Source: Gemmatimonadota bacterium
GTDB lineage: Bacteria; Gemmatimonadota; Gemmatimonadetes; Longimicrobiales; Gaopeijiaceae
Direction: 5' to 3'
NCBI GenBank assembly: GCA_028873845.1
Contig: JAPPNO010000062.1
Location: 1-32,731 of the forward strand
DNA length: 32,731 bases
Shown: positions 3,082 through 21,797 of the stretch, one piece after another
Position numbering within the stretch: position 1 is the first letter of the stretch
Layout of the letters: each line of letters opens with the position of its first letter
Notes under the pieces: model-generated
The model's input: the letters and a program-made list of their open reading frames with translations, nothing else
What the model was told of the DNA's origin: nothing
Database searches by the model: none
Made by a program: the position numbers and the translations under genes

Positions 3082-4566
3082 TCACCCCGACTCGGCCTCC
3101 AGCTTCCGCACCCCCGCCCGCAGCACCTCGAGCGCCAGGTCGATCGTGTCGAGGTGCGTGCGGAACGCCAGCGCCGCCATCCTGAGCTGGAACTTCCCGT
3201 CGACCATCGTCGAGGACAGGAACACCCGCCCGTCGCGGTGCGTCTCCTTGACGAGCGCCCGGTTGAAGGCGTTCGCGTCGCCCGACCGCGGCACCCACCG
3301 GTACGTCACCACGGTGAGTTCCGGCTCCGGCCCCACCTCGAAGCCGAGCGCCGCGACCTCCCGGTGGAAGTACTTCGCCAACTCCACCTTTTCGCGCAGG
3401 CAGGCCCGAAACGGCTCCTCGCCGTGCAGCAGCAGCGGCAGCCAGACGCGCAGCCCGCGAAAATGCTTGGTGAGCTCCGGCGACACGGCGGCGGGCGACC
3501 GTCCCCCGGCCTCTGCCTCGACGGTGTCCTGCATGTAGGCGGCGTAGTAGGCGTGCGCGTGCTGGAGCGCATGACGGTTCCGGACCAGGACGGCGCCGGT
3601 GCCGTAGGGGAGGAACATCCCCTTGTGCGGGTCGAGGACGATCGAATCCGCGCGCTCCATGCCGGAGAGCGCCGGGCGGAACTCGGGCAACATCGCGAAG
3701 AAGCCCCCGTAGGCGGCGTCGACGTGGTACCACAGGCCGTCGCGCCGTGCGATGTCGGCGATTCTCGCGAGCGGATCGATCGCGCCCGTATCCGCGGTGC
3801 CCGCCGAGGCGAGCACGAGCCAGGGCCGGAGACCGCGCGCACGGTCCGCCGCGATGGCTTCGGAGAGCGATGCGGGGCACAGGCGCCGGTTTTCGTCCAC
3901 CGCGACATCCCGGCGTACGGATTCACCGAGGCCGGCCACCCGCAGCGCCTTGTGGAGACACTGGTGAATGTGGGGCGAGGCGTACACGACGGCCCGGTGG
4001 AAGTCGCGGGCCCGCAGTCCCGCCGCTTCACGCGCGGCCACGACCGCGATCAGGCTCGCGATGGATCCGCCCGAGGAGAGGTTGCCGTCGGCGGTCTCGG
4101 GAAACCCGACGAGCTTCGCCATCCAGTCGAGGATCAGGTCCTCCATTTCGACGGCGCCGGGGCCCGCGAACCGCACGCCTGCGTACTCGTTCGTCACCGC
4201 GGCGAGGTAGTCGGCGAGCGACGAGGCGTAGATCCCGCCGCCGGGGATGTAGGCCAGGTGCCCGGCGTGCGAGGGGATGAGGCCCGGGCGCACGACGGAC
4301 TCGTCGATCCGGTCGATGAGCTGGTCCATCGGTCGGGGTCCGGGCCCGGCGGCGAGGTTCCGGAGTCCGAGGGCGCCCGACTTGTCATGGTTGTAGGCGG
4401 GCGTCTCCGCGAGTCCGTCGAGGAAGCGCTGGGCGTATCTGTGTGCCGCCGTCAGGAGCCGGTCCCGCTCGGCCGCATCGGGGTCGAGCGGCCGGGCGGC
4501 CCGTTCAAGCTGGAGAATGCGGGAGCGTTGCGGCGTCGGGTCCTGGCGGTTCGCGCGCGTTCTCAC
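3082..4566 (-). CDS. PLP-dependent group II amino-acid decarboxylase
   Basis: A 494-residue cytoplasmic enzyme of the aromatic-L-amino-acid/tyrosine/diaminobutyrate decarboxylase family (usual length about 480), which removes CO2 from an amino acid to give an amine. Visible motifs are the cofactor-binding stretch NLSSGGSIAS, the HVDAAYGG motif with Asp283 positioned to contact the pyridine nitrogen, and SIVLDPHKG with Lys315 as the Schiff-base lysine. No signal peptide is present. The GTG at 4566 overlaps the stop of the upstream LanC-like gene as GTGA, giving a full-length domain by translational coupling. The much longer open frame extending to 5274 is only the LanC-like gene read in another frame. 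The substrate cannot be told from the sequence; tryptophan/tyrosine/DOPA, glutamate or diaminobutyrate are all possible. It is the last gene of a three-gene operon. Confidence 0.88.
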   Translation of the reverse strand: MRTRANRQDPTPQRSRILQLERAARPLDPDAAERDRLLTAAHRYAQRFLDGLAETPAYNHDKSGALGLRNLAAGPGPRPMDQLIDRIDESVVRPGLIPSHAGHLAYIPGGGIYASSLADYLAAVTNEYAGVRFAGPGAVEMEDLILDWMAKLVGFPETADGNLSSGGSIASLIAVVAAREAAGLRARDFHRAVVYASPHIHQCLHKALRVAGLGESVRRDVAVDENRRLCPASLSEAIAADRARGLRPWLVLASAGTADTGAIDPLARIADIARRDGLWYHVDAAYGGFFAMLPEFRPALSGMERADSIVLDPHKGMFLPYGTGAVLVRNRHALQHAHAYYAAYMQDTVEAEAGGRSPAAVSPELTKHFRGLRVWLPLLLHGEEPFRACLREKVELAKYFHREVAALGFEVGPEPELTVVTYRWVPRSGDANAFNRALVKETHRDGRVFLSSTMVDGKFQLRMAALAFRTHLDTIDLALEVLRAGVRKLEAESG

Positions 4567-6032
4567 CACGGATCGTCCGGCAGCACCACCCGCGGCCCCT
4601 CGCCGCGCTCCTCCACGGCGTCCATGTGCAGGAAGTACTTCCCGACGCCCGCCGCGCCCTGCATGTGCCCCGTCTGGGCCACGAGCAGGTCGGGCTGCAC
4701 GCGATGCTCGGCCTGGGTCCACTTGCGGCCCGCCCCGGCCGCAGTGTCGACGATCGAGGCGCGGCCCAGCAGGTCCGCGTTCAGGCGGTCGACGAAGGCG
4801 CGGTACCCGGCGTCGCCGGTGGTGCGGTAGAGGGTCAGGAAATGGTCGGCCGCGCCCGCGGTTCCGCAGCACTGGCTGATGTTCTCCCAGAAGCCGGGGG
4901 TGCGGGTTTCGGGGATGCCGGTGGCGATGACTCCGCGGGCGCCCCGGGCCACCCAGTCGTGCCACTGGTCGTCGCCGGTGGCTTCGGCGAGCTGGCGGAA
5001 GAGGCGGTTGGTGCCGACGGGGCCGTGGCACCACGAGAGGTAGTAGAGGTCCTCGCCGCCGGGGCGGGAGTGGAAGATGCGGTACGCGGGTTGGCGGCCG
5101 GCATCGTCGGGGGGTTGGTCGAGGGTGGCCTGGGATACCAGGTAGTCGGCGCCGGCCAGGGCGGCGTCCAGGCAGTCGCCGGACCCGGTGGCGCGGTGCA
5201 GAGTGGCCAGGAAGTACGCGATGCCGGCGGTTCCGTGGGAGAAGTTGGGCATCTCGCGGGCGTAGCCGGGCCACATGTCCCAGCGCAGGCCGGTGTCGGC
5301 CTCGGCGGCGCGTTCGAGGAGGCGTGCGCCGGCTGCTTCGGCAGCGTGGAGAGCGCCGGCGGTGCCGAGGACGCGGTGAAGATGGAGGAGCGCGAGCCCT
5401 GTGCCCGCGGTGCCGCTGACGATGTCGTTGGATTCCCGGGTGTCGTCGCTCCGGGGCATGGGCCAGGGTACGGGCCAGGCGATCCCGTCGCCCACCGGGC
5501 TGGCGTTCTCAAGAAGAAGGCGGGCGGCGCGTTCGGCGTCGTCCCGGTGCTCGTCCCGCCGTGTCGCCCGCCAGGTCTCGGCCAGCACGAAGGCGATGCC
5601 CGCGAGACCGGTGTAGAGGCCGGCGCCCGCGACCTCGTCCAGCGTGGCGGCGAGGTGGGCTGCGGCGGCTGATGCGGCGTCCAGGTACCGCTGGTCGCCG
5701 GTGGCGTGGAAGAGCTCCAGGGCGAAGGGGAGGACGCCGGGTGAATGTGTGTATAGTGTGTATCCGGTCGAGGCGGGGTCAGTGGGGTCGGCGGGCCAGG
5801 TGATGCCGTGGGGTGTCTCGATCCGGTGTGCGTCGAGCCAGTTCCAGGCCTCGACGGCGATCTGGAGGTGGGGACGGGGGAGGGGCGCTGCCGAGCGCCG
5901 CTCAGGGTCCAGTGGAGCCAGGGCGCGGAGGAGGGCGGGGGACAGCGCGAAGGCGGCGGCGGTTCCCGCGGTGCCGGTTACGAAGGAGCGACGGGTCCAG
6001 TGTGTATGGTGTGTATTACGCGTGCCGCACAT
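4563..6032 (-). CDS. Tat-exported LanC-like protein
   Basis: A 489-residue protein with an alpha/alpha-toroid of the LanC-like family. The repeated GTAG/HG motifs are TGLAGIA, VSGTAGTG, FSHGTAGIAYFL (His266), YLSWCHGPVG (Cys335), SQCCGTAGAADHFL (Cys388, Cys389) and TGHMQGAAGVGKYFL (His456). In classical LanC cyclases the zinc is held by Cys in WCxG and by the Cys-His pair of a CHG motif. Here the CHG position reads CCG, so the site would be three cysteines. The N-terminus carries a twin-arginine signal (THWTRRSFVTG, Arg14-Arg15) followed by a hydrophobic Ala-rich stretch, predicting export of the folded metalloprotein. No LanA, LanB or LanM partner is visible, so lantibiotic synthesis is not supported. 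ATG 6032 has GGGAGG about 10 nt upstream and lies 1 bp after the amidohydrolase stop. The substrate is unknown. Confidence 0.82.
   Translation of the reverse strand: MCGTRNTHHTHWTRRSFVTGTAGTAAAFALSPALLRALAPLDPERRSAAPLPRPHLQIAVEAWNWLDAHRIETPHGITWPADPTDPASTGYTLYTHSPGVLPFALELFHATGDQRYLDAASAAAAHLAATLDEVAGAGLYTGLAGIAFVLAETWRATRRDEHRDDAERAARLLLENASPVGDGIAWPVPWPMPRSDDTRESNDIVSGTAGTGLALLHLHRVLGTAGALHAAEAAGARLLERAAEADTGLRWDMWPGYAREMPNFSHGTAGIAYFLATLHRATGSGDCLDAALAGADYLVSQATLDQPPDDAGRQPAYRIFHSRPGGEDLYYLSWCHGPVGTNRLFRQLAEATGDDQWHDWVARGARGVIATGIPETRTPGFWENISQCCGTAGAADHFLTLYRTTGDAGYRAFVDRLNADLLGRASIVDTAAGAGRKWTQAEHRVQPDLLVAQTGHMQGAAGVGKYFLHMDAVEERGEGPRVVLPDDPW
5747..5763. repeat. 17-bp ATACACAC tandem motif, copy 1
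   Basis: GTGTGTATAGTGTGTAT on the plus strand; on the gene strand this is two ATACACAC half-sites separated by one base. It lies inside the LanC-like gene, read there as YTLYTH. It matches the copy at 6000-6016 at 16 of 17 bases although the two are in different codon phases. Confidence 0.6.
6000..6016. repeat. 17-bp ATACACAC tandem motif, copy 2
   Basis: GTGTGTATGGTGTGTAT on the plus strand, covering codons 6-11 of the LanC-like gene (NTHHTH). It is 253 bp from copy 1 and has the same half-site spacing. AT-rich relative to the surrounding coding sequence. Confidence 0.6.
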
Positions 6033-6033
6033 T

Positions 6034-9000
6034 TCAGGAGCCTCCCTCGTTGGCGCTCCGCGGCGAGTCCCCGCGCGGTCCCGGGTCCCCGTTTCCGGCG
6101 CCCACCCCCGGCACCCCCTCCGGTTCGTCGTCCCACCACCAGAGCGGCGCCACCTCCCGGTCCCCCGGGTACTGCTCTGCCAGCGTGTCGCCGTCGTAGA
6201 GGCGCCCGTTCACCATCACCATGTGAATTCGGTTCGTGTTGCGCAGGTCATCCAGCGGGTTCGCGTCGAGGATGACCAGGTCGGCCAGCTTCCCGGCCTC
6301 GATCGCGCCCAGGTCCTCGTCGAGCCCGATCGCCTCGGCGCCCAGGATCGTCGCCATGCGCAGCGCGTCGAGCTCACCGATGCCCCCGGCCGCCATCGCC
6401 CACAGCTCCCAGTGGAACCCCAGCCCCTGCAGCTGTCCGTGGCTGCCCACCCCCGCCCGTCCCCCCGCCTCGACCAGGTCCTTCACGAAGAGCGCGTGGT
6501 CCGCGAAGACGTGCTCCTCGTCGCGGAACCACTGTGCGCGGCGCAGCGTCCCACCGTCGATCACCGAGTGGGGCACGAAGCGGCGCAGCTTGGCGTCGCC
6601 GTGCGGGTTCTCGCGGCTGAAGAAGTAGTTCTCCGCCCACGGTCCCCCATACGAGACCAGCAGCGTGGGGCTGTAGGCGCGTCGCGTCGCCACGAAGAGC
6701 TGCACGTAGTCGTCGTAGACCGGGTAGATCGGGATCGAGTGCTCCAGCCCCGGGTACCCGTCGATCGTCTCGTTCAGGTTCTGGCGGAGGTTGAGCGATC
6801 CCTCGGTGGTGGGCATGAGGCCGAGTTCGCGCGCCGCCATGATGATCCACTGGCGCTGCTGCCGGTTCCCCGCCACGTACATCTTGATCGTCTTGGTGTC
6901 GAAGTACTTCGAGTACCTGGAGAGGATGTCGCGCGCCTCGTCCTCCGAGCCGATCATGTGCTGCCAGAAGACGCCGGGGCCGGTCGAGTAGACGCGCGGG
7001 CCGACCAGCTCGCCGGTGCGGACCCGGTCGGCGTAGCTGAGCACGTCGGTGGTGCCGGTCTGCGGATCGCGCGTGGTGGTGACGCCGTAGGCCACGTTGG
7101 CCAGATAGGGCCACACGTCGGAGCGGTGGAGGTTGTTGGCTGGGCGCATGTGGGCGTGAGTGTCGACGAACCCGGGAACGATGGTCTTGCCGGCGAGGTC
7201 GAAGACGCGGGCGTCGGCGGGGACGTCGAGGGAGCCGGAGGGGCCGACGGCGGCGATGCGGTTGTTGCGGATCAGGATATCGGCGCGGTCGATGACGCCC
7301 GCTTCGGCCACTGTGATGACGCGCGCGCCGGTGAGCAGGGCGGTGCCGCGCGGGATGTCGCGGGTGGCCTGGATGTCGATCCATACTTCGGTGGGCTGAT
7401 ACTCTTCGTCTTCCTCGTCTTCGCCTGCCTCTCCGGCTTCCCCGGGCTCCGCTTCGGCCTCCGCCGCTTCCTCGTTCGCCTCCGCCTCCTCGAAGGCCTC
7501 GGCCGCGTCCAGATCGTAGGTGAAGAAGGCGCGGCCCAGCGACCAGTGCACCGCCCGCCCGCTCGCGGCCCACGCGGGGAACTCCGCGCCGATGTCGGTG
7601 AGCCGGCGGGCCGGCATCTGGGCGCTGCCGGGATTGCCGACGTTGATCAGCGGGGCCTCGCCCCCCACCCTCGGCACGGTGGCCGTGTAGACCTGCTGCT
7701 GGATGAGCGCCATGACCAGGTCGCCGCGCGGGGCCATGCGGAGCACCGACGGGGTGAGCGCGGCCTGGCTTCCGGGCGGTGTGCGGCCGCGGAGGCGCAC
7801 ATGCTCCTGCTCGTCGGTGCCGTCCCAGCGGATCGAGACGAGCATGTCGCCCCGCTGCAGGTGGATGCGGTCGGCGTTCGGGCCGCTGCCCTCCGTCCCC
7901 TCGGCGAAGTGGGGGCCGCGGCGGCCTTGCACCGGCGCGATCAGGGTGGCCGCGCCGGGACTGTCCCCGTCGGCCACCCACACGATCTCGCCCGGTTGGG
8001 GCGCGCCCGATCCGAACCCGCCGGCCGATTCCTGGAAGTCGCGCGCGAAGCTGCGGAGTGCGACTAGCCGGTCGCCCGCAGGCGACCACGCGGGGGTGAT
8101 GTAGACCGCGCCGCGCTCGGTCAGCCGCACGGGGGACCCGCGGCCGTCGGCGCGGACCTTGTAGAGGTGGCCCGCCTCGCCGTCCCAGGTGGCGTAGGCG
8201 ATCCAGTCGCCGCCGGGGGACCATGCCGGATAGTGCTCCGAGTGGTCCGCTTCGGTCAGGCGGCGGGGATCGGTGCCGTCGGCGTTCGCGACCCAGAGGC
8301 GGTCGAGCGCGGTGAAGGCGACGCGCGCGCCGTCGGGGGAGGGCACCGCGTCGCGGATCTGGCGGACGGTGAAGGTGGGGGTGTCCTCGATCGGGTAGTC
8401 GAATTCGACGAGCGGGCCGAGTTCGAGGTCGTACTGGACGCGGAAGGGGATCTCCTCCGCGCCGCCGTCGATCACGTCCAGCTTCCAGATCTTCCCGCCG
8501 TAGCTGGCGACGAGATGGCGCGAATCGGGGGTGAAGGACATCCCCGGCAGCACGTCGAGGGTGGCGCGCGATTCCTGGTCGTCGTGCTGGACGGGGTAGG
8601 CGAGCCAGCGCTCGTCGCCGGACTCGAGGTCGCGGACGCGCAGCCCCGTGTGGAAGTCGTGCCGGGTGCCGTAGACGAGCCAGCGCCCGTCGGGCGATAG
8701 GGTGGGGCGGACGCCGGAGCCGTAGCGCGAGGTGCGGGTGTAGTTCTCGCCGGTCTCGCGGTCGTAGACGGCCAGCTGGTACTGGGGGAACTGGGCGTTG
8801 TAGGTCCAGTCGCTGGTGCGGCGCGCATACCAGATGTAGCGGCCGCTCGGGTCGAAGGCCGCGCCGAGGGTCTTGAGGTTGTCGGGCTCGCTGATCAGCT
8901 GGATGCCCGATCCGCCGTCCACGTGATAGAGCGAGAGCCTGGGGAGGCCGCCGCCGCGAAATCCCCCCTTCGAGGCGACGATGTAGTCTCCGTCGGGGGA

Positions 9001-9408
9001 CCAGTCGGGCGATTCGGTGCGGTTGCTCGCGCCCTTCGTGATCTGCGTGGTGTCGGAGCCGTCCAGCGACATGATCCACACGTTCTGGCCGCCGCTCCGG
9101 TCCGAGGTGAAGACGATGCGGGTGCCGTCGGGGGAGAAGCGCGGCTGCGCGTCGAAGGCCATGCCGGAGGTGAGCTGCGTGGCGTCGCCCCCGGTGATGG
9201 GGACGGTGAAGAGATTGCCCAGGTGGTCGAAGACGAGGGTCTGCCCGTCGGGACTCACGTCCAGGGAGATCCACGACCCGACCGTCATGTCGATCGCGAG
9301 GGTGCGGTCGGGGGGGAGGGGGAGGGGGGACTTCCGGTTGTCTTCCGAATCCTGGGCGAGGGCGCCGGCGGGCAGCAGCAGGGCGGCGGCGAAGATGAGA
9401 TTCCGCAT
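6034..9408 (-). CDS. Secreted TolB-propeller/amidohydrolase fusion
   Basis: A 1124-residue two-part enzyme. The signal peptide MRNLIFAAALLLPAGALAQ is followed by a TolB/PD40-type beta-propeller to about residue 630, with repeated SPDGxxIVFTSDRSG and SPDGDYIV blades. Then comes an acidic low-complexity linker of Glu/Ala (about 634-674). The amidohydrolase domain has FVDTHAHM (HxH near residue 750), TIKMYV (Lys near 841), GLEHSIP (His near 888) and VGSHGQLQGLG...HWE (near 992), and ends with the typical AGKLADLVILDANPL strand. These are the metal-binding positions of the imidazolonepropionase-like branch, which hydrolyses C-N bonds in cyclic amides or acyl-dipeptides. The ATG at 9408 fits the signal peptide and has AAGGAG 11 nt upstream; the longer start at 9546 would add a non-signal extension. 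First gene of the operon with the LanC-like and decarboxylase genes. The substrate is not deducible. Confidence 0.88.
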   Translation of the reverse strand: MRNLIFAAALLLPAGALAQDSEDNRKSPLPLPPDRTLAIDMTVGSWISLDVSPDGQTLVFDHLGNLFTVPITGGDATQLTSGMAFDAQPRFSPDGTRIVFTSDRSGGQNVWIMSLDGSDTTQITKGASNRTESPDWSPDGDYIVASKGGFRGGGLPRLSLYHVDGGSGIQLISEPDNLKTLGAAFDPSGRYIWYARRTSDWTYNAQFPQYQLAVYDRETGENYTRTSRYGSGVRPTLSPDGRWLVYGTRHDFHTGLRVRDLESGDERWLAYPVQHDDQESRATLDVLPGMSFTPDSRHLVASYGGKIWKLDVIDGGAEEIPFRVQYDLELGPLVEFDYPIEDTPTFTVRQIRDAVPSPDGARVAFTALDRLWVANADGTDPRRLTEADHSEHYPAWSPGGDWIAYATWDGEAGHLYKVRADGRGSPVRLTERGAVYITPAWSPAGDRLVALRSFARDFQESAGGFGSGAPQPGEIVWVADGDSPGAATLIAPVQGRRGPHFAEGTEGSGPNADRIHLQRGDMLVSIRWDGTDEQEHVRLRGRTPPGSQAALTPSVLRMAPRGDLVMALIQQQVYTATVPRVGGEAPLINVGNPGSAQMPARRLTDIGAEFPAWAASGRAVHWSLGRAFFTYDLDAAEAFEEAEANEEAAEAEAEPGEAGEAGEDEEDEEYQPTEVWIDIQATRDIPRGTALLTGARVITVAEAGVIDRADILIRNNRIAAVGPSGSLDVPADARVFDLAGKTIVPGFVDTHAHMRPANNLHRSDVWPYLANVAYGVTTTRDPQTGTTDVLSYADRVRTGELVGPRVYSTGPGVFWQHMIGSEDEARDILSRYSKYFDTKTIKMYVAGNRQQRQWIIMAARELGLMPTTEGSLNLRQNLNETIDGYPGLEHSIPIYPVYDDYVQLFVATRRAYSPTLLVSYGGPWAENYFFSRENPHGDAKLRRFVPHSVIDGGTLRRAQWFRDEEHVFADHALFVKDLVEAGGRAGVGSHGQLQGLGFHWELWAMAAGGIGELDALRMATILGAEAIGLDEDLGAIEAGKLADLVILDANPLDDLRNTNRIHMVMVNGRLYDGDTLAEQYPGDREVAPLWWWDDEPEGVPGVGAGNGDPGPRGDSPRSANEGGS

Positions 9409-10115: not shown

Positions 10116-13100
10116 TTATTGGCCTCGAGTGGAGTACGCCCGGGGCCGGCCGGGTGGCCAGAGGGCGGTCCGGAGCCGTGTTCGTGGAAACTGCCGCAAA
10201 ACACGGAGGGGTTGGTAGGAGGGGAGACCGGTGAACGCTGCGGCGACATGTTCAACCGCGGATGGCGACTCACCAGCTTCGATCAGGAGGGACGCTTGTG
10301 AAAGTGAAGTCGAGTCGGCGGGAATCGCCAGCACCCAGAATATATCGTCGACGTAACGCCCCTCCCAATCAGTGGCGGTCACAGTCAAGATCCCCATCCC
10401 TTCCTCGTTGTACGTAACCCACATTGTATCCGCCGATACCTCGTGGTTCACCGGCACCGTCGAGGTCGCCGAGTAGGTCAGGTCGTCTCCGTCCGGATCG
10501 TCGAAGTAATCGGACAGCAGGTACGTGAGGGTGTCGCCCTCGGTGACGCCGGAATGCCTGAATTTCGTCGTGAGCGTCGGTGGCCGGTTGTCGGAAACCG
10601 TGACCGGGATTTCATAGTCGACCTCCAGCCCCGCCAAGTCAATGGCGGTAGCAGTGATCGTCGCTTCGCCGTGGGACCGCCCCGTGACTTGGAGGTACCA
10701 TCCGTACAGGCCGCTCCCCTGGATACTGGCTCTTACCACTTGCGGGTCCGAAACCGACGCGGAAAACCTCAATTTGTCATCGTCACCCACGTCGTTGTCC
10801 TCGAAAATCGTCCCCATGGTCAGCGTATCGACTTCGCCCGGTGAGGTAAACAACGGAATTCCACAATGCGGGTTCCCCGTAGTGCAAGGTCCCCCTGGGT
10901 AGCCCAAAGTAAACTCATCCTTCCCCGGCTGGCGGTCGGGTCCGTCATAGAGCGTGGGAGGGTTGTTGCCGATGGTATGCACCATCGAGAAACTTGCCGA
11001 CAGGCCCCCCGGGTCCGTAGCTGTGATCGTGATGGTCGCCTCTCCGTCCCCCGTCGCGGTTATATCGACGTTGCCCGACGGGTAGATGTGCACCTTCATT
11101 CTGGTTGAATCCGAAGATTCCGCCGAGATGCGCAGGTTCTGAATAACGTCGTCTGGATCCCTGAAATGCTTCGCCTTCGCAATCGTTCTCTCGCCGCCTA
11201 CTATGAAGTTCCTGGAATCGTAGGTGCGGGTGACGTACGGCGGCTGGTTCTCCTTTGGAAGTCCGACGGTGACCTGGAACTCCCCGCTGGCCGAAAGTCC
11301 CTCCGGGTCTTCGGCGGTAACCGTGACGGTGGTCTTGCCCTTGGTCAGTGCCGCCACCTCGAGTTCGTTGCCGGATATCGTGGCCGTGGCCACCGTGGTG
11401 TCGGAGCTCTCGGCGGACAGCGCCAGGTCGTCACCGTCGGGGTCTTCAAAGCGCCCGGCGGCGTCCACGGTCGTCGACTTGCCGACCTTCAGCTTCAGAG
11501 GCGGCATGTGGTAGGCGACCGGCGGCCGGTTGGGACCCTCGGGCTCCAGAACCGTCACGCCGAAGTCCGTCTGCGCTGTGAGGCCGCCCGTATCCTCGGC
11601 GGTGATGAACACGGTCGCCGTGCCGGGACCCGTCGCCTGCAATGCAATGTCGGACCCCGAGACGGTAACGGTCACCACTTCGACATCATAAACCCATGCC
11701 GAGTACTCGAGCGGGTCGTTGTCGGGGTCGGTGAAGTAGCTGGACACGTCCACCGTGGTTTCTCCGTCCGATTCCAGCGTCTGCGCGGCGATCGTGCCCA
11801 CGAGTGCAGGCGCGCGGTTCTCGTCACTGGCTTCGGCGACCGTCACGCCAAAGGCCTGGGTGGTGTGGAGTCCGCCGGCATCCTGCGCCTTGACCTCCAC
11901 CGTCGCGGTGCCCGTGCCGGTCACCGTCAGTTCGACCGCGCTGCCGGAGACGCTCGCCTCGACCACTCCGAGGTCGGAGCTCCGGGCAGAGAACTCCAGC
12001 TTGTCGTCGTCGGGATCGTCGAAGTAGGACGTGGCGTCCAACATTCTCTCGTCGCCTTCTTCCAGGTGCTGGGTGCGAATCTGGCCGGTGGCGACCGGAG
12101 GCTCATTGGCGTCGGAACCGGATCCCGACCCGGACGAGCCCTTCACGCGCACGCCGAATACCTGGTCCGCGGTCAGGCCTTCCGGATCCTCGGCGATGAG
12201 GGTCACCGTCGCGGTTCCTCCCCCGACGCCCCGGACCACGACCCCGTTCGTGGCCACCCATGCCCTCGCGACCGTCAGATTCGAACTCTCGGCCCGGAAC
12301 ACCAGTTCGTCGCCGTCGGGATCGGTGAAACGCGGCCGGGGATCCAGCCTTCTGATCCCACCCTGGCTGATGCGCTGCTGTGAAACCTTCCCGACTGCCT
12401 CCGGGGTACGGTTGGGGACGGCGACGAAAAACTCCTGCCCGACCGTCATGTCCTCGGGGTCGGTGGCCACGACGAAGACCTGTGCCAGACCCTTCCGGAG
12501 CGCTTTGATCGTCATGGTTCCGCCGGAGAGGGAAACGGCGAGGACCGATGGTTCGCTGGTGGCCCATGTATAGACCAGTTCGTCGCCGTCGGGGTCCTCG
12601 AAGTAGCCGGGGAGCTCCATGGCGACGCTCTCGTCCACATGGACGGTCTGCGCCTCGATCGATCCGACCGCGTGCGGCGGGCGGTTGGCCACCGAGACCG
12701 TGAAGGCCTGGGTCGCCGTGAGGCCCTCCGGATCGGTGGCTGTGACGGTGACGACCGCACCGCCCTTGGCCAGCGCTGCAACGGTCGCGGCCGCGCCTTC
12801 GGACGAGACGCCGATCAGCGTCGCGTCGGACGAGGAGACGGTGTAGACCAGGTCGTCGCCATCGGGGTCCTCGAAGTAGCCGGCAAGCTCCACTGTCGTG
12901 TTGTCTCCGAGGTCGAGGGCCAGCGCCTCGATCGTACCGACCGCCAGCGGGGGCCGATTCGGCACGGTCACGGGGAAGGCCTGGGTGGCCGTGAGACCCT
13001 CGGTGTCGGTGGCAGTGATCGTCACGGTCGCTTCGCCCTTGGCCACGGCCGTCACCGTCACCGCGCCGCCCTCGACGGAGGCGCCGATCACCGCGGTGTC

Positions 13101-14132
13101 GGATGGAGCCGCCGTGTAGACAAGGTTGTCGCCGTCGGGGTCGCTGAAGTGGCCGGAGAGCTCGATAGTGCCCGTCTCACCCACCTCGATCGTCCGCCCT
13201 TCGATCGCACCCGTTGCGAGAGGAGGGCGGTTCGGCACGGTCACGGGGAAGGCCTGCGTGGCCGTGAGGCCCTCGGTGTCCGTTGCCGTCACCGTCACCT
13301 CGCCCTTGGCCAGGGCGGTCACCGTAAGGTCGCCGCCCGAAATCGAAACCGCCGCGACCGCTGGATCCGAGGATGTGGCCGTGTAGACCAGGTCGTCCCC
13401 GTCCGGGTCGGCGAAGTAGCCGGAGACATCGATGCCGGCGGCCCCGTCCACCTCGACCGTCTGCGGCTCCATCGAACCCACCGCCCCCGGGGTCCGGTTC
13501 GGCACCGTGACCACGAAGCTCTGCACCGCCGTCAGGCCACCGGGGTCGGTCGCCGTCGCCGTCACCGTGGCGAATCCCTTCGCCCGGGCCTCGAACGTCA
13601 CGGCCGCGCCGGCCGCGGAGATGGCCAGAACGCTCTCGTCGGACACCGACATCGCGTAAGTGAGCGTTTGCCCATCGGGCTCACTGAAATAGGATGAGAC
13701 GTTCACCGACCCGGACTCCCCGGCCCGCAACTCACGCGACTCGATCTCGCCCACCGCCAGCGGCGCCCGGTTCGGCACCATCACGCGGAACGCTTGCTGC
13801 CCCGTCAGGTCCGTCACGTCGGTCGCGGTGATCGTGACCACCCCTGTCCCCGGAGAGACGCCCGTTACGGTCACCATGCTTCCGGCAATCGAGACCGTAG
13901 CGACCCCAAGGTCCGAACTCGACGCCGAAAAGGTCAGCAGGTCGCCGTTCGCATCCTCGAAACAGGCGTTTACCGTGGCGGTCTCTCCGACCGTCAGCGT
14001 CTGCTCCGGGATCGCGCCGCACATCGCCGGCGCCTCCGGGTTCTCGCAGGCTGCGAGGAATGGCACGAGCACGGTCGCACACAAGGCTCGGACAGGGTGC
14101 AGCCTCCGAATCAATCCATTGAATCTGTCCAT
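10116..14132 (-). CDS. Large cadherin/Ig-like repeat lipoprotein (paralog B)
   Basis: A 1338-residue predicted surface lipoprotein. The signal peptide ends in FLAAC (Cys29, the same position as in paralog A). About 13 repeats follow, each close to 90 residues (DNA period 267-273 bp), with NRPP linkers, DPDGD acidic loops that could bind calcium, and ATVTxTATDxEGLTATQAF closing strands. A Gly/Ser linker (KGSSGSGSGSD) separates repeats 7 and 8, mirroring paralog A. Repeat 1 again has two spare cysteines. The ATG at 14132 is chosen for GGGGAGG 5 nt upstream. The last 60 or so residues (after WVLAIPADSTSL) are Pro/Arg/Leu-rich and do not resemble a domain, so the natural stop may have been lost. 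Likely adhesion or matrix binding (inference). The family call is secure at the level of repeat architecture; the ligand is unknown. Confidence 0.87.
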   Translation of the reverse strand: MDRFNGLIRRLHPVRALCATVLVPFLAACENPEAPAMCGAIPEQTLTVGETATVNACFEDANGDLLTFSASSSDLGVATVSIAGSMVTVTGVSPGTGVVTITATDVTDLTGQQAFRVMVPNRAPLAVGEIESRELRAGESGSVNVSSYFSEPDGQTLTYAMSVSDESVLAISAAGAAVTFEARAKGFATVTATATDPGGLTAVQSFVVTVPNRTPGAVGSMEPQTVEVDGAAGIDVSGYFADPDGDDLVYTATSSDPAVAAVSISGGDLTVTALAKGEVTVTATDTEGLTATQAFPVTVPNRPPLATGAIEGRTIEVGETGTIELSGHFSDPDGDNLVYTAAPSDTAVIGASVEGGAVTVTAVAKGEATVTITATDTEGLTATQAFPVTVPNRPPLAVGTIEALALDLGDNTTVELAGYFEDPDGDDLVYTVSSSDATLIGVSSEGAAATVAALAKGGAVVTVTATDPEGLTATQAFTVSVANRPPHAVGSIEAQTVHVDESVAMELPGYFEDPDGDELVYTWATSEPSVLAVSLSGGTMTIKALRKGLAQVFVVATDPEDMTVGQEFFVAVPNRTPEAVGKVSQQRISQGGIRRLDPRPRFTDPDGDELVFRAESSNLTVARAWVATNGVVVRGVGGGTATVTLIAEDPEGLTADQVFGVRVKGSSGSGSGSDANEPPVATGQIRTQHLEEGDERMLDATSYFDDPDDDKLEFSARSSDLGVVEASVSGSAVELTVTGTGTATVEVKAQDAGGLHTTQAFGVTVAEASDENRAPALVGTIAAQTLESDGETTVDVSSYFTDPDNDPLEYSAWVYDVEVVTVTVSGSDIALQATGPGTATVFITAEDTGGLTAQTDFGVTVLEPEGPNRPPVAYHMPPLKLKVGKSTTVDAAGRFEDPDGDDLALSAESSDTTVATATISGNELEVAALTKGKTTVTVTAEDPEGLSASGEFQVTVGLPKENQPPYVTRTYDSRNFIVGGERTIAKAKHFRDPDDVIQNLRISAESSDSTRMKVHIYPSGNVDITATGDGEATITITATDPGGLSASFSMVHTIGNNPPTLYDGPDRQPGKDEFTLGYPGGPCTTGNPHCGIPLFTSPGEVDTLTMGTIFEDNDVGDDDKLRFSASVSDPQVVRASIQGSGLYGWYLQVTGRSHGEATITATAIDLAGLEVDYEIPVTVSDNRPPTLTTKFRHSGVTEGDTLTYLLSDYFDDPDGDDLTYSATSTVPVNHEVSADTMWVTYNEEGMGILTVTATDWEGRYVDDIFWVLAIPADSTSLSQASLLIEAGESPSAVEHVAAAFTGLPSYQPLRVLRQFPRTRLRTALWPPGRPRAYSTRGQ

Positions 14133-14163
14133 TCCGACCTCCCCGGCCATGGGCGAAAACGTT

Positions 14164-18713: not shown

Positions 18714-21700
18714 CTAACCGCACAGCGCACTCTCCCCCAGTATCGCGTTCAGCGTCTCCACGAGCCACTCCGCGTCGTCCTCGCCGAACACCATCGGCGG
18801 CTTCACCTTGAGCACGTTGTGGCCGGGCCCGTCGGCGCTCAGCAGCACCCCCATCGCGCGGGCCCGGTTCACAATGTACGCGCACGCCTCCGGGTACGGC
18901 TCCCTCGTCTCCCGGTCGCGCACGATCTCGATCCCGAGAAACAGCCCCCGCCCCCGCACGTCCCCCACCAGCGGATGCCGCGCGGCCAGCTCCCCCAGCC
19001 TCTCCAGCAACCCCGCCCCCACGCGCCTGGCGTGCTCCACCAGCCCCCGCTCCCCGATCTCCGCCAGCACCGCCCGCGCCGCCGCGCACGACACGGGATT
19101 GCCCCCGAAGGTGCTGAAGTACTCCATCCCGTTGGCGAAGGCGTCGGCGATCTCGCGCGTCGTCACCACCGCCGCGACCGGGTGGCCGTTGCCCATCGGT
19201 TTGCCCAGGGTCACGATATCGGGCACGACACCCTGCAGTTCGAATCCCCAGAAGGCGTCGCCCACGCGGCCGAACCCCACCTGCACCTCGTCCGCCACGC
19301 ACACCCCGCCCGCCGCCCGCACGTGACGGTACGCGGCCTCCAGGTAGCCGGGCGGCGGCTCGATCTGGCCTCCGCAGCTCAGGATCGGCTCGGCCACGAA
19401 GGCCGCCACGCCGTGCCCGCGGTCCCCCAGCACCCTCGCGGCATCCCCCACCTCCGCGGCATACCGGACACCCAGCTCCCCGTCCGGAATCCCGCGGCCC
19501 CGCCGCAGCCTCCCCCGGTACACGTCCGGCATCGCCGCCGCCACCACCCGGTCGCTCGCTCCCGTGCCCCCCGGCCCGGCGAACTTGTAGTGGCTGATCT
19601 CGACCAGCCCCCCCGTATTGCCGTGGTAGCCCCCCTCCACGCAGACCACGCCGTCGTGGCCGGTGCGGCAGCGCGCCATGCGCAGTGCCAGCTCATTTGC
19701 CTCGCTCCCCGAGCACACCAGGAACATCACCTCGAGCGGGGCGGGAAAGTGCGCCAGCAGCTCCTCGCCCAGCGCGACGATTTCTGTGTGCAGGTATCGC
19801 GTGTTGGTGTTGAGCACACGGCTCTGGCGGGCGATCGCCTCGGCGACGCGCGGGTTTCCGTGTCCCACGTGCGGGACGTTGTTGACCGTGTCCAGGTAGC
19901 GGCGCCCCGTGTCGTCGTAGAGGTACGCGCCCACCCCGCGCACGACATGGATCGGGTCGGCGTAAGACAGACTGAGCGACGAACCGAGAATCGTCTTGCG
20001 CTTTTCGCTTAGAACGCGTTTCCGCAAGACAGGCTCCGTTTCGGGCGCGATCGCGGTGCGCGTCCCGGAGGGCAGACCCGCCAGCGGAGCGGGGTCGGGG
20101 AGGATCGACTCCCACACCGCGCGCAGCCGGTGCAGCACGACCCCCGTGTAGTTCCCGCGATCCTCCGGGGGTGTGCCCTCGTCGAAGAGCGGATCCATGG
20201 CGATGACCTGGAGGTGAAGGTGGGGCGGCCATCCCCCGTTGACCGAGGCGTCGCCGAGCCAGCCGATGACATCCCCGGGCGCGACCCGGTCGCCCGGGGA
20301 GAGGTGGCCGAGGGTGGCGCGGTCGAGGTGGCCGTAGAGGGTGTGGAAGCCGGCGCCGTCCGGCGTGGCGTGGCGAAGGATGACGGTGGGGCCGTAGTCG
20401 AGGGGCCGGTCGTTGTGGGCGACGGCGAGCACGAAACCGGCGATGGGGGCGCGAACGGGGGTGCCGGCGGGCGCGAAGAGGTCCAGGCCGAGGTGGACGG
20501 TGCGGGACTCGGGGCCGTTGTCGCCGCGCGCCTGGAAGGCCGGAGTGTCGTAGAGAAGACGGGCTTCGCCGTAGCGCCCGACGGCGACGGTGGCCGCGGC
20601 GTCCGCAATCTCGCGCTCGATCCAGGCCTCCGCGGCGCCGGGTCGGGCGGCGTCGTCGGGGTGGGGGAGATCCGGGCTCTCCACCGACAGGTCCAGCACG
20701 CGCGGACGCGCCAGCACCCACCGCGGCATGACCGGCGCGCGGGCACCGGCACTCCGCATCCACGCCGCCACCGGCGCCACGCCGGGATTGGGGTCCAGCC
20801 CGCACGCGTGGCGGATCCTGGACTCCCCGATCCGCCAGTCGGTCCGGGCCAGCAGGTCCAGCAGCCGCCACGCAGCCTCCTGGCTGACCGCCAGGTACTC
20901 GTTGCCGGGCTGTTCGCGCATCTGCCGCGCCTGCACCGACACGGACTGGCAGAGCCGGAGCGCCACCATCGGGAGGATCGCGCGGCACTCCTCGGCCGTG
21001 AGCGGCGCCACTCCGGCATACCCCCGCGCGATCGCACACGCCGCGCCCAGCGGGTCGGCGCCGCCCATCATCGCGTATGCCGCGGCGATGGCCACCTCGG
21101 CCGCCCTCCACCCTCGCGCCACGTCCCCGAAGTCGATCAGGCCCGCCAGGCGCGCTCCCTCGAGGGAGGGCCGCACCAGCACGTTGAAGTCGTTGCCGTC
21201 GTTGTGGATCACGGCGCGGGGCAGCTCGTCCGCGACCGCATCCAGGCGGGGCGCGGCGCGGTCGAGGGTGCGCTCAACGAGGTCCTGTCCGTGCCCCAGC
21301 CGGTCGAGATGGCCGCGAATGGTGGCCGCCGCGGACTCCATCCTCCAGGCGAAGTCACGTTCCAGTTCGGGGTGATCGAAGTCGGCCAGCGCCGTGTCGA
21401 GTTCGGCAAGGAGTGCGCCGAGATCTTCCAGCACGGCCGGCGAGCGGGGTCGCAGCTCGGCCAGCGGGATCCCGTGCAGCCAGGTGACGGCGCAGGCCAC
21501 GTGCGGTGCGCCCTCGAAGGTGACGTGCGCGACGCGGGTGGAGGCGGCCGTTCCCACGGGTGCGACCACGCGTGGAACGCGTCCGGGGAACTTCCCGGCC
21601 GCCAGGTGGTACAGGCAGGACGTGACGAGATCGAATACGGGCAGGCGGGAGACCCGGCCGAGCTTCAGAACGATGTCGCCGCCGGCATCCGAAACGCGGA

Positions 21701-21797
21701 AGTTCAGATCCACTTCGCCGGGCAGGGGACGGGCTTCACCCCCGACGCCGAAGTGGTCCCGGGCGACGGCGGCGGCCCGGTGAATGCGGCTGTTCAA
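18714..21797 (-). CDS. Kinase / M23 peptidase / class-III PLP phospholyase fusion
   Basis: A 1027-residue three-domain cytoplasmic protein. Residues 1 to about 340 are an aminoglycoside-phosphotransferase/hydroxylysine-kinase-type fold, with the catalytic loop VIHNDGNDFNVLV (His198, Asp200, Asn205) and the Mg-binding GLIDFGD (Asp222). Residues about 420-560 are an M23/LytM domain with all expected zinc positions: HLGLD (His435, Asp439) and HLHL (His526, His528). Residues about 600-1027 are a class-III aminotransferase fold with GSEANELALRMAR, FVAEPI, VADEVQVGFGR and TLGKPMGNGHP (Lys866 for PLP). The C-terminal part is closest in character to ethanolamine-phosphate and 5-phosphohydroxylysine phospho-lyases. 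In animals the kinase and lyase act in sequence on hydroxylysine. Here they would phosphorylate a hydroxyamine or hydroxyamino acid and eliminate ammonia and phosphate (inference). The role of the M23 domain is unexplained. The start is TTG 21797 after GAGG; no ATG fits. Confidence 0.87.
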   Translation of the reverse strand: MNSRIHRAAAVARDHFGVGGEARPLPGEVDLNFRVSDAGGDIVLKLGRVSRLPVFDLVTSCLYHLAAGKFPGRVPRVVAPVGTAASTRVAHVTFEGAPHVACAVTWLHGIPLAELRPRSPAVLEDLGALLAELDTALADFDHPELERDFAWRMESAAATIRGHLDRLGHGQDLVERTLDRAAPRLDAVADELPRAVIHNDGNDFNVLVRPSLEGARLAGLIDFGDVARGWRAAEVAIAAAYAMMGGADPLGAACAIARGYAGVAPLTAEECRAILPMVALRLCQSVSVQARQMREQPGNEYLAVSQEAAWRLLDLLARTDWRIGESRIRHACGLDPNPGVAPVAAWMRSAGARAPVMPRWVLARPRVLDLSVESPDLPHPDDAARPGAAEAWIEREIADAAATVAVGRYGEARLLYDTPAFQARGDNGPESRTVHLGLDLFAPAGTPVRAPIAGFVLAVAHNDRPLDYGPTVILRHATPDGAGFHTLYGHLDRATLGHLSPGDRVAPGDVIGWLGDASVNGGWPPHLHLQVIAMDPLFDEGTPPEDRGNYTGVVLHRLRAVWESILPDPAPLAGLPSGTRTAIAPETEPVLRKRVLSEKRKTILGSSLSLSYADPIHVVRGVGAYLYDDTGRRYLDTVNNVPHVGHGNPRVAEAIARQSRVLNTNTRYLHTEIVALGEELLAHFPAPLEVMFLVCSGSEANELALRMARCRTGHDGVVCVEGGYHGNTGGLVEISHYKFAGPGGTGASDRVVAAAMPDVYRGRLRRGRGIPDGELGVRYAAEVGDAARVLGDRGHGVAAFVAEPILSCGGQIEPPPGYLEAAYRHVRAAGGVCVADEVQVGFGRVGDAFWGFELQGVVPDIVTLGKPMGNGHPVAAVVTTREIADAFANGMEYFSTFGGNPVSCAAARAVLAEIGERGLVEHARRVGAGLLERLGELAARHPLVGDVRGRGLFLGIEIVRDRETREPYPEACAYIVNRARAMGVLLSADGPGHNVLKVKPPMVFGEDDAEWLVETLNAILGESALCG

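Follow-up and report, generated by a model that had tools for sequence, protein, structure and literature searches.

A 32,731-nt stretch of DNA from a marine Gemmatimonadota bacterium (assembly GCA_028873845.1, contig JAPPNO010000062.1, positions 1 to 32,731 of the forward strand; in the following called the window) contains an operon of three minus-strand genes, in which a LanC-like protein with a predicted twin-arginine translocation (Tat) signal, P0001, is encoded between a secreted amidohydrolase, P0003, and a group II pyridoxal phosphate (PLP)-dependent decarboxylase, P0002 (Table 1). The genome has a size of 4.05 Mb, and the closest named relative encountered is Candidatus Palauibacter poriticola. 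LanC enzymes are known as cytoplasmic lanthipeptide cyclases or, in eukaryotes, as enzymes that attach glutathione to dehydroamino acids. The results described below indicate that LanC chemistry is probably used here outside the cell, and for something other than lanthipeptide antibiotics. The gene order P0003, P0001, P0002 and the tight joints that had been described in an initial annotation of the window were confirmed: P0003 and P0001 are separated by a single base, position 6033, and the stop codon of P0001 overlaps the start codon of P0002. An overlapping joint of the LanC and decarboxylase genes is also present in four related loci (L004, L006, L010, L064).

Table 1. Features of the operon in the window, in the direction of the genes
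Feature	Position	Strand	Basis
P0003, secreted TolB-propeller/amidohydrolase	6034..9408	-	Pfam PD40 repeats and Amidohydro_1/3
Predicted amidohydrolase-superfamily domain of P0003, about residues 688-1073	6190..7347	-	PF01979/PF07969
P0001, Tat-signal LanC-like protein, 489 aa	4563..6032	-	PF05147 3e-32; AlphaFold model
Predicted Tat signal region of P0001, residues 1-39	5916..6032	-	RR in 40/40 members
Twin-arginine motif TRRSF of P0001	5982-5996	-	Sequence reading
Predicted catalytic acid His266 of P0001 (PNFSHG), equivalent to LanCL1 His219	5235..5237	-	41/41 conserved; alignment to LanCL2/LanCL1
Cys335-His336 of P0001 (SWCHG)	5025..5030	-	41/41 conserved
Cys388-Cys389 of P0001 (QCCG), predicted second and third zinc ligands	4866..4871	-	Conservation
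GTGA overlap, LanC stop and decarboxylase start	4563..4566	-	GTG start of P0002 at 4566
P0002, group II PLP-dependent decarboxylase (Pyridoxal_deC), 494 aa	3082..4566	-	PF00282 2e-59

P0001 is the only PF05147 (LANC_like) protein in the whole window genome, and it matches the Pfam profile with 112 bits at a cutoff of 23.2. In an alignment of 41 rows, with members down to about 40% identity, Cys388 is kept in 40/40 and Cys389 in 39/40 family members, and a C-terminal AQTGxMQG motif is conserved in 39/39. When the family profile is aligned with human LanCL2, PNFSHG falls on the catalytic-His motif, SWCHG on WCHG, and QCCG on CHG. The three zinc-ligand residues and the catalytic His of the LanC-like superfamily are all conserved in P0001, and the predicted zinc site is of the Cys3 (CCC) type and not of the CCH type, according to the scheme of PMC11251773. 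Cys335 is predicted to be the equivalent of the LanCL1 zinc-ligand Cys, and His336 the equivalent of the enolate-stabilising His277. In LanCL1 a zinc-bound thiolate attacks dehydroalanine (Dha) or dehydrobutyrine (Dhb), and the enolate is protonated by His219 and stabilised by His277, the residue that follows a zinc Cys; bacterial LanCs have a Tyr at this position, while ProcM and HalM2 have a His (PMC9934072). The CCC cyclases are a minority, to which ProcM belongs, and they have been described as more reactive (PMC11251773).

An AlphaFold model of P0001 built from 31 family sequences had a pLDDT (predicted local distance difference test) of 86.7 and a pTM (predicted template modelling score) of 0.86, and replaced an earlier model from a 9-sequence alignment with a pLDDT of only 73.7. 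The model has the (alpha/alpha) toroid fold of NisC and LanCL. In a VIA-align comparison the top 20 matches were all LanC, LanCL or LanC domains (Z 37.9-24.8), with CuvL as the best match (37.9), followed by GCR2 (35.7), LanCL2 (34.9), NisC (33.8) and LanCL1 (33.5), and the first glycosidase appeared only at Z 23.4. The structure comparison with LanC, LanCL and glycosidase toroids that had been proposed in the initial annotation was thus decided in favor of LanC/LanCL. A glycosidase reading, raised by a weak Pfam match to GH127, was rejected, because the LanC structures outrank the glycosidases.

The N-terminus of P0001 contains the motif THWTRRSFVTG, followed by a hydrophobic stretch, and TatC is encoded in the window genome. 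The Tat motif noted initially was borne out, and the counter-argument named there, absence of the motif from close relatives, failed, because every family member has the arginine pair, at the same place. The N-termini of all newly added members also show a twin-arginine motif that precedes a hydrophobic, alanine-rich stretch. Judging from the motif, the hydrophobic region and the Tat translocase gene, P0001 is very probably an exported protein. In most LanC proteins of the genus (e.g. L027, L029, L030) a conserved MC or MCxxC start precedes the Tat region. Taken together, prediction and conservation give good support to the predicted export, fold and active site of P0001. LanC-type zinc/thiol chemistry is likely, and zinc binding and thia-Michael catalysis would be expected, given the residues that are conserved and what is established for the mechanism of LanC.

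Full relatives of P0001, with identities of 43-90%, were found in 38 of 395 Gemmatimonadota genomes, together with one degenerate and one weak match, and two family-level searches added three genera. In a Tat-signal, lipobox-containing LanC-like protein of genome G026 (L061 7376-8758, minus strand), neither the catalytic His nor SWCHG is retained; this relative is degenerate and possibly not an enzyme. Outside the phylum, relatives (Streptomyces, Nonomuraea, Mesobacillus, Georgenia) have the CCG motif and, where read, start at the toroid and lack a signal. Long branches in the tree left the monophyly of the Tat family versus the cytoplasmic relatives unsettled. In the open-access literature no description of an exported or Tat-dependent LanC was found, and this absence is not proof of novelty. 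We rate the P0001 family as LanC-superfamily enzymes with an unusual location and context.

The claim that P0001 is a standalone LanC without a LanA, LanB or LanM partner nearby also held. P0001 itself has no DUF4135 dehydratase domain, as would be found in a class II LanM. A search for PF13575 (LanM) gave no match in the window genome (G000), and only one match in the genus set of 23 genomes, in G019, which shows that the search works. This LanM-type protein (L045, contig C10 of G019) is the only DUF4135 hit in the genus; the genome also encodes a Tat-LanC, on another contig, and no LanM adjoins a LanC gene. LanB (PF04738) gave no match in the 23 genus genomes, in a search without a positive control, and none was seen among the window neighbors that were read. 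P0001 is a single-domain protein without the fused kinase and lyase domains of classes III and IV, and it reached 136 bits with the LanL model, at a cutoff of 650. The operon joints leave no room for a precursor gene inside. P0001 is most likely not part of a lanthipeptide biosynthetic cluster, and a practical corollary is that lanthionine biosynthesis is an unsuitable annotation for genes of this kind.

Several known LanC systems resemble P0001 in part. NisC and other class I LanC proteins share the fold, the zinc Cys pair and the catalytic His, but NisC has Tyr285 in place of His336, a CCH site, and LanB/LanA partners, none of which was found beside P0001. LanCL1 and LanCL2, which are not known to be exported, are likewise standalone proteins without a dehydratase partner and have the same catalytic His and WCHG (Z 33-35); however, they have a CCH zinc site and use glutathione as the thiol, whereas P0001 carries a Tat signal and its third ligand is predicted to be Cys389 and not a His. 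The eukaryotic proteins add glutathione to Dha and Dhb (PMC9934072). The ProcM-type class II LanM enzymes have the Cys-Cys-Cys zinc triad as well as the His at the His277 position (PMC9934072, PMC11251773), but are dehydratase-cyclase fusions that work in the cytoplasm. The cyclase domain of CuvL, a class IV LanL (PDB 8CAR/8CAV), is the best match in sequence as well as in fold and shares QCCG with P0001; CuvL, however, is a kinase-lyase-cyclase fusion (class IV architecture, PMC7268733) that acts on a lanthipeptide, in contrast to the lone cyclase fold with a Tat signal. The standalone proteins from Streptomyces, Nonomuraea, Mesobacillus and Georgenia plasmid records, annotated as "lanthionine synthetase LanC family protein", share CCG and most of their length with P0001 at 32-33% identity, but differ in their neighbors and in the missing Tat signal.

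The two partner proteins could be assigned to families from their sequences. P0003 has an N-terminal Sec-type signal (MRNLIFAAALLLPAGALAQ), followed by a TolB-like PD40 beta-propeller and a C-terminal amidohydrolase domain (PF01979 3e-18, PF07969 1e-14). The profile match and the predicted metal-binding HxH within FVDTHAHM place this domain in the amidohydrolase superfamily, and its nearest solved relatives are prolidase-like amidohydrolases. P0002 matches PF00282 with 202 bits at a cutoff of 27 and contains the motifs HVDAAYGG and DPHKG, as expected for a PLP-dependent decarboxylase with its PLP-Lys motif; no signal peptide was seen at its N-terminus.

Within the genus, the LanC gene is present in 14 of the 23 genomes, and the order amidohydrolase-LanC-decarboxylase is kept in most relatives (L003-L006, L008-L010, L012-L015). 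The ratio of nonsynonymous to synonymous substitutions (dN/dS) lies at 0.24-0.31 for LanC, which indicates purifying selection, and at about 0.2 for the decarboxylase. Given this selection on LanC and the conserved gene order, the trio is more than chance. An orthologue of the amidohydrolase occurs in 12/14 genomes with LanC versus 0/9 without it, a comparison that is uncorrected for phylogeny or physical linkage, and physical linkage explains part of the co-occurrence. In most relatives a Xan_ur permease gene follows the decarboxylase gene, and an M19 dipeptidase gene lies further down. Among the variants, LanC of G001 (L041) is shortened internally by about 50 residues, following residue 146, with intact Tat and zinc motifs, and in L007 (11424-18480) LanC and decarboxylase are set apart by an insertion of several kb that contains a ParA/MinD-like ATPase gene together with further genes.

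Only one genus has the trio in exactly this form, and even there it is not obligatory. G013 and G019 have LanC without the orthologous amidohydrolase, and in G013 its place is occupied by a CARDB/Ig-like protein. In this genome (L064) an Ig/PKD-like repeat protein is also encoded between decarboxylase and permease, similar to those that flank the operon in the window. Conversely, G012 has the decarboxylase without LanC, and a 21-residue remnant of the LanC C-terminus is located directly upstream (L051 8141-8204); another such remnant, within the range of 21-26 codons, is found at L017 4790-4864 in a genome that has lost the gene. Homologues without decarboxylase or amidohydrolase also exist (L016, L087, L093, L103, L105). 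The scatter of partners that the initial annotation had named as a counter-argument was therefore in part observed. An obligate three-gene pathway was rejected, because partners are lost or replaced among relatives. The cyclic amide or acyl-peptide initially proposed as substrate, a single fixed pathway, and a step in which "the released" amino acid must be decarboxylated are not supported.

Outside the genus, the link of a hydrolase and an amino-acid-degrading enzyme with LanC recurs, with partners that are not orthologous, and in this more general form the proposed connection was upheld. In L091 and L094 a group II decarboxylase follows LanC, but it is only 36% identical to P0002; orthology of the decarboxylases was therefore rejected for these loci, and the LanC-decarboxylase association arose more than once. 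A further group II decarboxylase lies two genes from LanC in L115. One genus (L096, L097, L102, L107) has the order threonine ammonia-lyase, D-aminoacylase-type amidohydrolase, LanC. Other neighbors are a diaminopropionate ammonia-lyase and an M20 dipeptidase (L088), tryptophanase (L117, L118), an M19 dipeptidase facing LanC (L089, L090), amidohydrolases (L085, L101), penicillin amidase (L098), prolyl oligopeptidase (L106), and an M14-like peptidase named by eye (L060). In L086 (2613-5085 and 7985-12584), an M19 dipeptidase, an Fe-S serine ammonia-lyase and 5-oxoprolinase-like PxpABC genes, the latter named by eye, are encoded near LanC, and the locus resembles a glutathione or peptide salvage neighborhood. 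Curated models identified the diaminopropionate ammonia-lyase, the tryptophanase, the Fe-S serine ammonia-lyase, the M19 and M20 dipeptidases and the penicillin amidase, while the threonine ammonia-lyase scored just under the cutoff of its model.

A first count in the non-genus loci revealed an amidohydrolase or group II decarboxylase at 9/48 genes directly next to LanC (+-1), compared to 3/161 more distant genes (p 1e-4). Since 24 distal windows proved too few for a control, the background was estimated from twenty 20-kb loci drawn at random from the same genomes, with 214 windows in total. The two enzyme classes already singled out in the initial annotation (amidohydrolase or group II decarboxylase) were found within two genes of LanC in 5/17 other genera versus 4.7% of the background windows (p 9e-4), and amino-acid lyases or decarboxylases in 6/17 versus 2.8% (binomial p 5e-6); the genera are not fully independent, and the gene calls in the neighborhoods were made in this analysis.

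The best explanation for these observations may be that P0001 is a Tat-exported, folded, zinc-dependent LanC-family enzyme that works outside the cytoplasm. The Cys3 zinc site would activate a thiol(ate), with His266 as general acid and His336 as enolate stabiliser, and the enzyme would add the thiol to a Dha or Dhb unit of a peptide, or run the reverse, retro-Michael reaction. A secreted or membrane-side amide or peptide hydrolase, here P0003, would cut the material, and a cytoplasmic amino-acid-degrading enzyme, here P0002, would dispose of the released amino acid, a role that elsewhere might be filled by threonine, diaminopropionate or serine ammonia-lyase, or by tryptophanase. These three ammonia-lyases and tryptophanase make 2-aminoacrylate-type intermediates, the free-amino-acid counterparts of Dha and Dhb, which is a suggestive parallel. 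The neighbors point to a dehydroamino-acid or thioether peptide as a candidate substrate in a catabolic setting; the reaction might run in either direction, and the neighbors may act in one pathway. We give about an even chance to the whole proposal of an extracytoplasmic thia-Michael enzyme that acts on dehydroamino-acid or thioether peptides within peptide catabolism, and a catabolic role of P0001 together with these neighbors appears similarly balanced between right and wrong.

Several points weigh against it. The decarboxylase is retained in 6/9 genus genomes without LanC and thus does not depend on LanC. None of the neighbors is obligatory; among the genera outside that of the window genome, about one third (g99, g126, g146, g148, g89) are without any such partner, in at least one of them with the gene near a contig end, and the wider enzyme classes (lyases etc.) were chosen after inspection. 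In addition, no observation singles out a dehydroamino-acid as the substrate, and proof of thiols outside the cytoplasm is lacking for these bacteria.

Other explanations have to be weighed against the same evidence. P0001 might serve periplasmic repair or detoxification by attaching a small thiol to Dha/Dhb of damaged peptides or exported proteins, much as mammalian LanCL1 uses glutathione, in which case the neighbors would represent general peptide turnover. The catalytic residues shared with LanCL1, including the His at the His277 position, the LanCL1 and LanCL2 structures among the best matches, and the standalone protein without a dehydratase would all be in agreement with this; a repair enzyme, however, would not need the recurrent pairing with amino-acid lyases and decarboxylases, and the predicted third zinc ligand is a Cys where LanCL has a His, so that repair seems unlikely. 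It is also improbable that P0001 is an exported LanC-family enzyme that shares no pathway with its neighbors, and that the operon is a chance arrangement conserved in one genus of a phylum whose genomes encode many secreted peptidases and amidohydrolases. The presence of about 8 strong amidohydrolase paralogues in each genome, the decarboxylase retained after LanC loss, the missing amidohydrolase in G013 and G019, and the lack of both partners in L016 fit such a coincidence, but the enrichment versus random loci of the same genomes and versus distal genes of the same loci does not, nor does the fact that unrelated enzyme families fill the same two roles.

An intact LanC active site could also belong to the cyclase of an unrecognised exported lanthipeptide or other ribosomally synthesised and post-translationally modified peptide (RiPP) that is dehydrated by an unknown enzyme. 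The LanC fold and the class IV synthetase domain as best structural match would be in accord with a cyclase, and of the 1392 unclassified LanC proteins in RefSeq that were set aside by a large mining study, some were proposed to represent RiPP classes that are new (PMC7268733). In view of the missing LanM domain in the window genome and its occurrence in 1/23 genus genomes, the negative LanB search in the genus without a positive control, the lack of room for a precursor gene, and a Tat signal, which would export the cyclase and thereby separate it from cytoplasmic dehydratases, we consider this very unlikely. Least probable is that P0001 is a toroid no longer capable of LanC chemistry, which would instead be active on sugars or function as a binding protein: the GH127 match (3e-5) is below the cutoff, and although the fold comparison also lists (alpha/alpha) glycosidases, with Z about 23, and the degenerate relative L061 in G026 has lost its motifs, the zinc ligands and the catalytic His are nearly invariant in the main family, and LanC structures are well above all listed glycosidases (Z 37.9 versus 23.4).

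A more far-reaching version of the catabolic explanation, rather doubtful at present, is that the exported LanC forms or cleaves thioethers where peptides from the environment, such as lanthipeptides or damaged proteins, contain dehydroamino-acid residues, and that the paired hydrolases and lyases or decarboxylases consume the products. If true, LanC chemistry would serve nutrition or the disarming of lantibiotics and not biosynthesis, and scavenging or disarming of thioether and dehydro peptides would be a possible role. A conserved, catalytically intact exported family in breakdown loci would be a third setting for LanC chemistry. The family is, in addition, a practical entry point to the large set of unclassified LanC proteins (PMC7268733).

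In the window, an Rfam search gave no match, and a scan for promoters and terminators was uninformative. The operon is flanked by two long, exported-looking proteins of repeated Ig/PKD-like domains (398-2818 and 10116-14150, minus strand). Further away, at 18714-21797 (minus strand), a 1027-aa fusion protein combines an APH-type phosphotransferase, an M23 peptidase domain and a class III aminotransferase.

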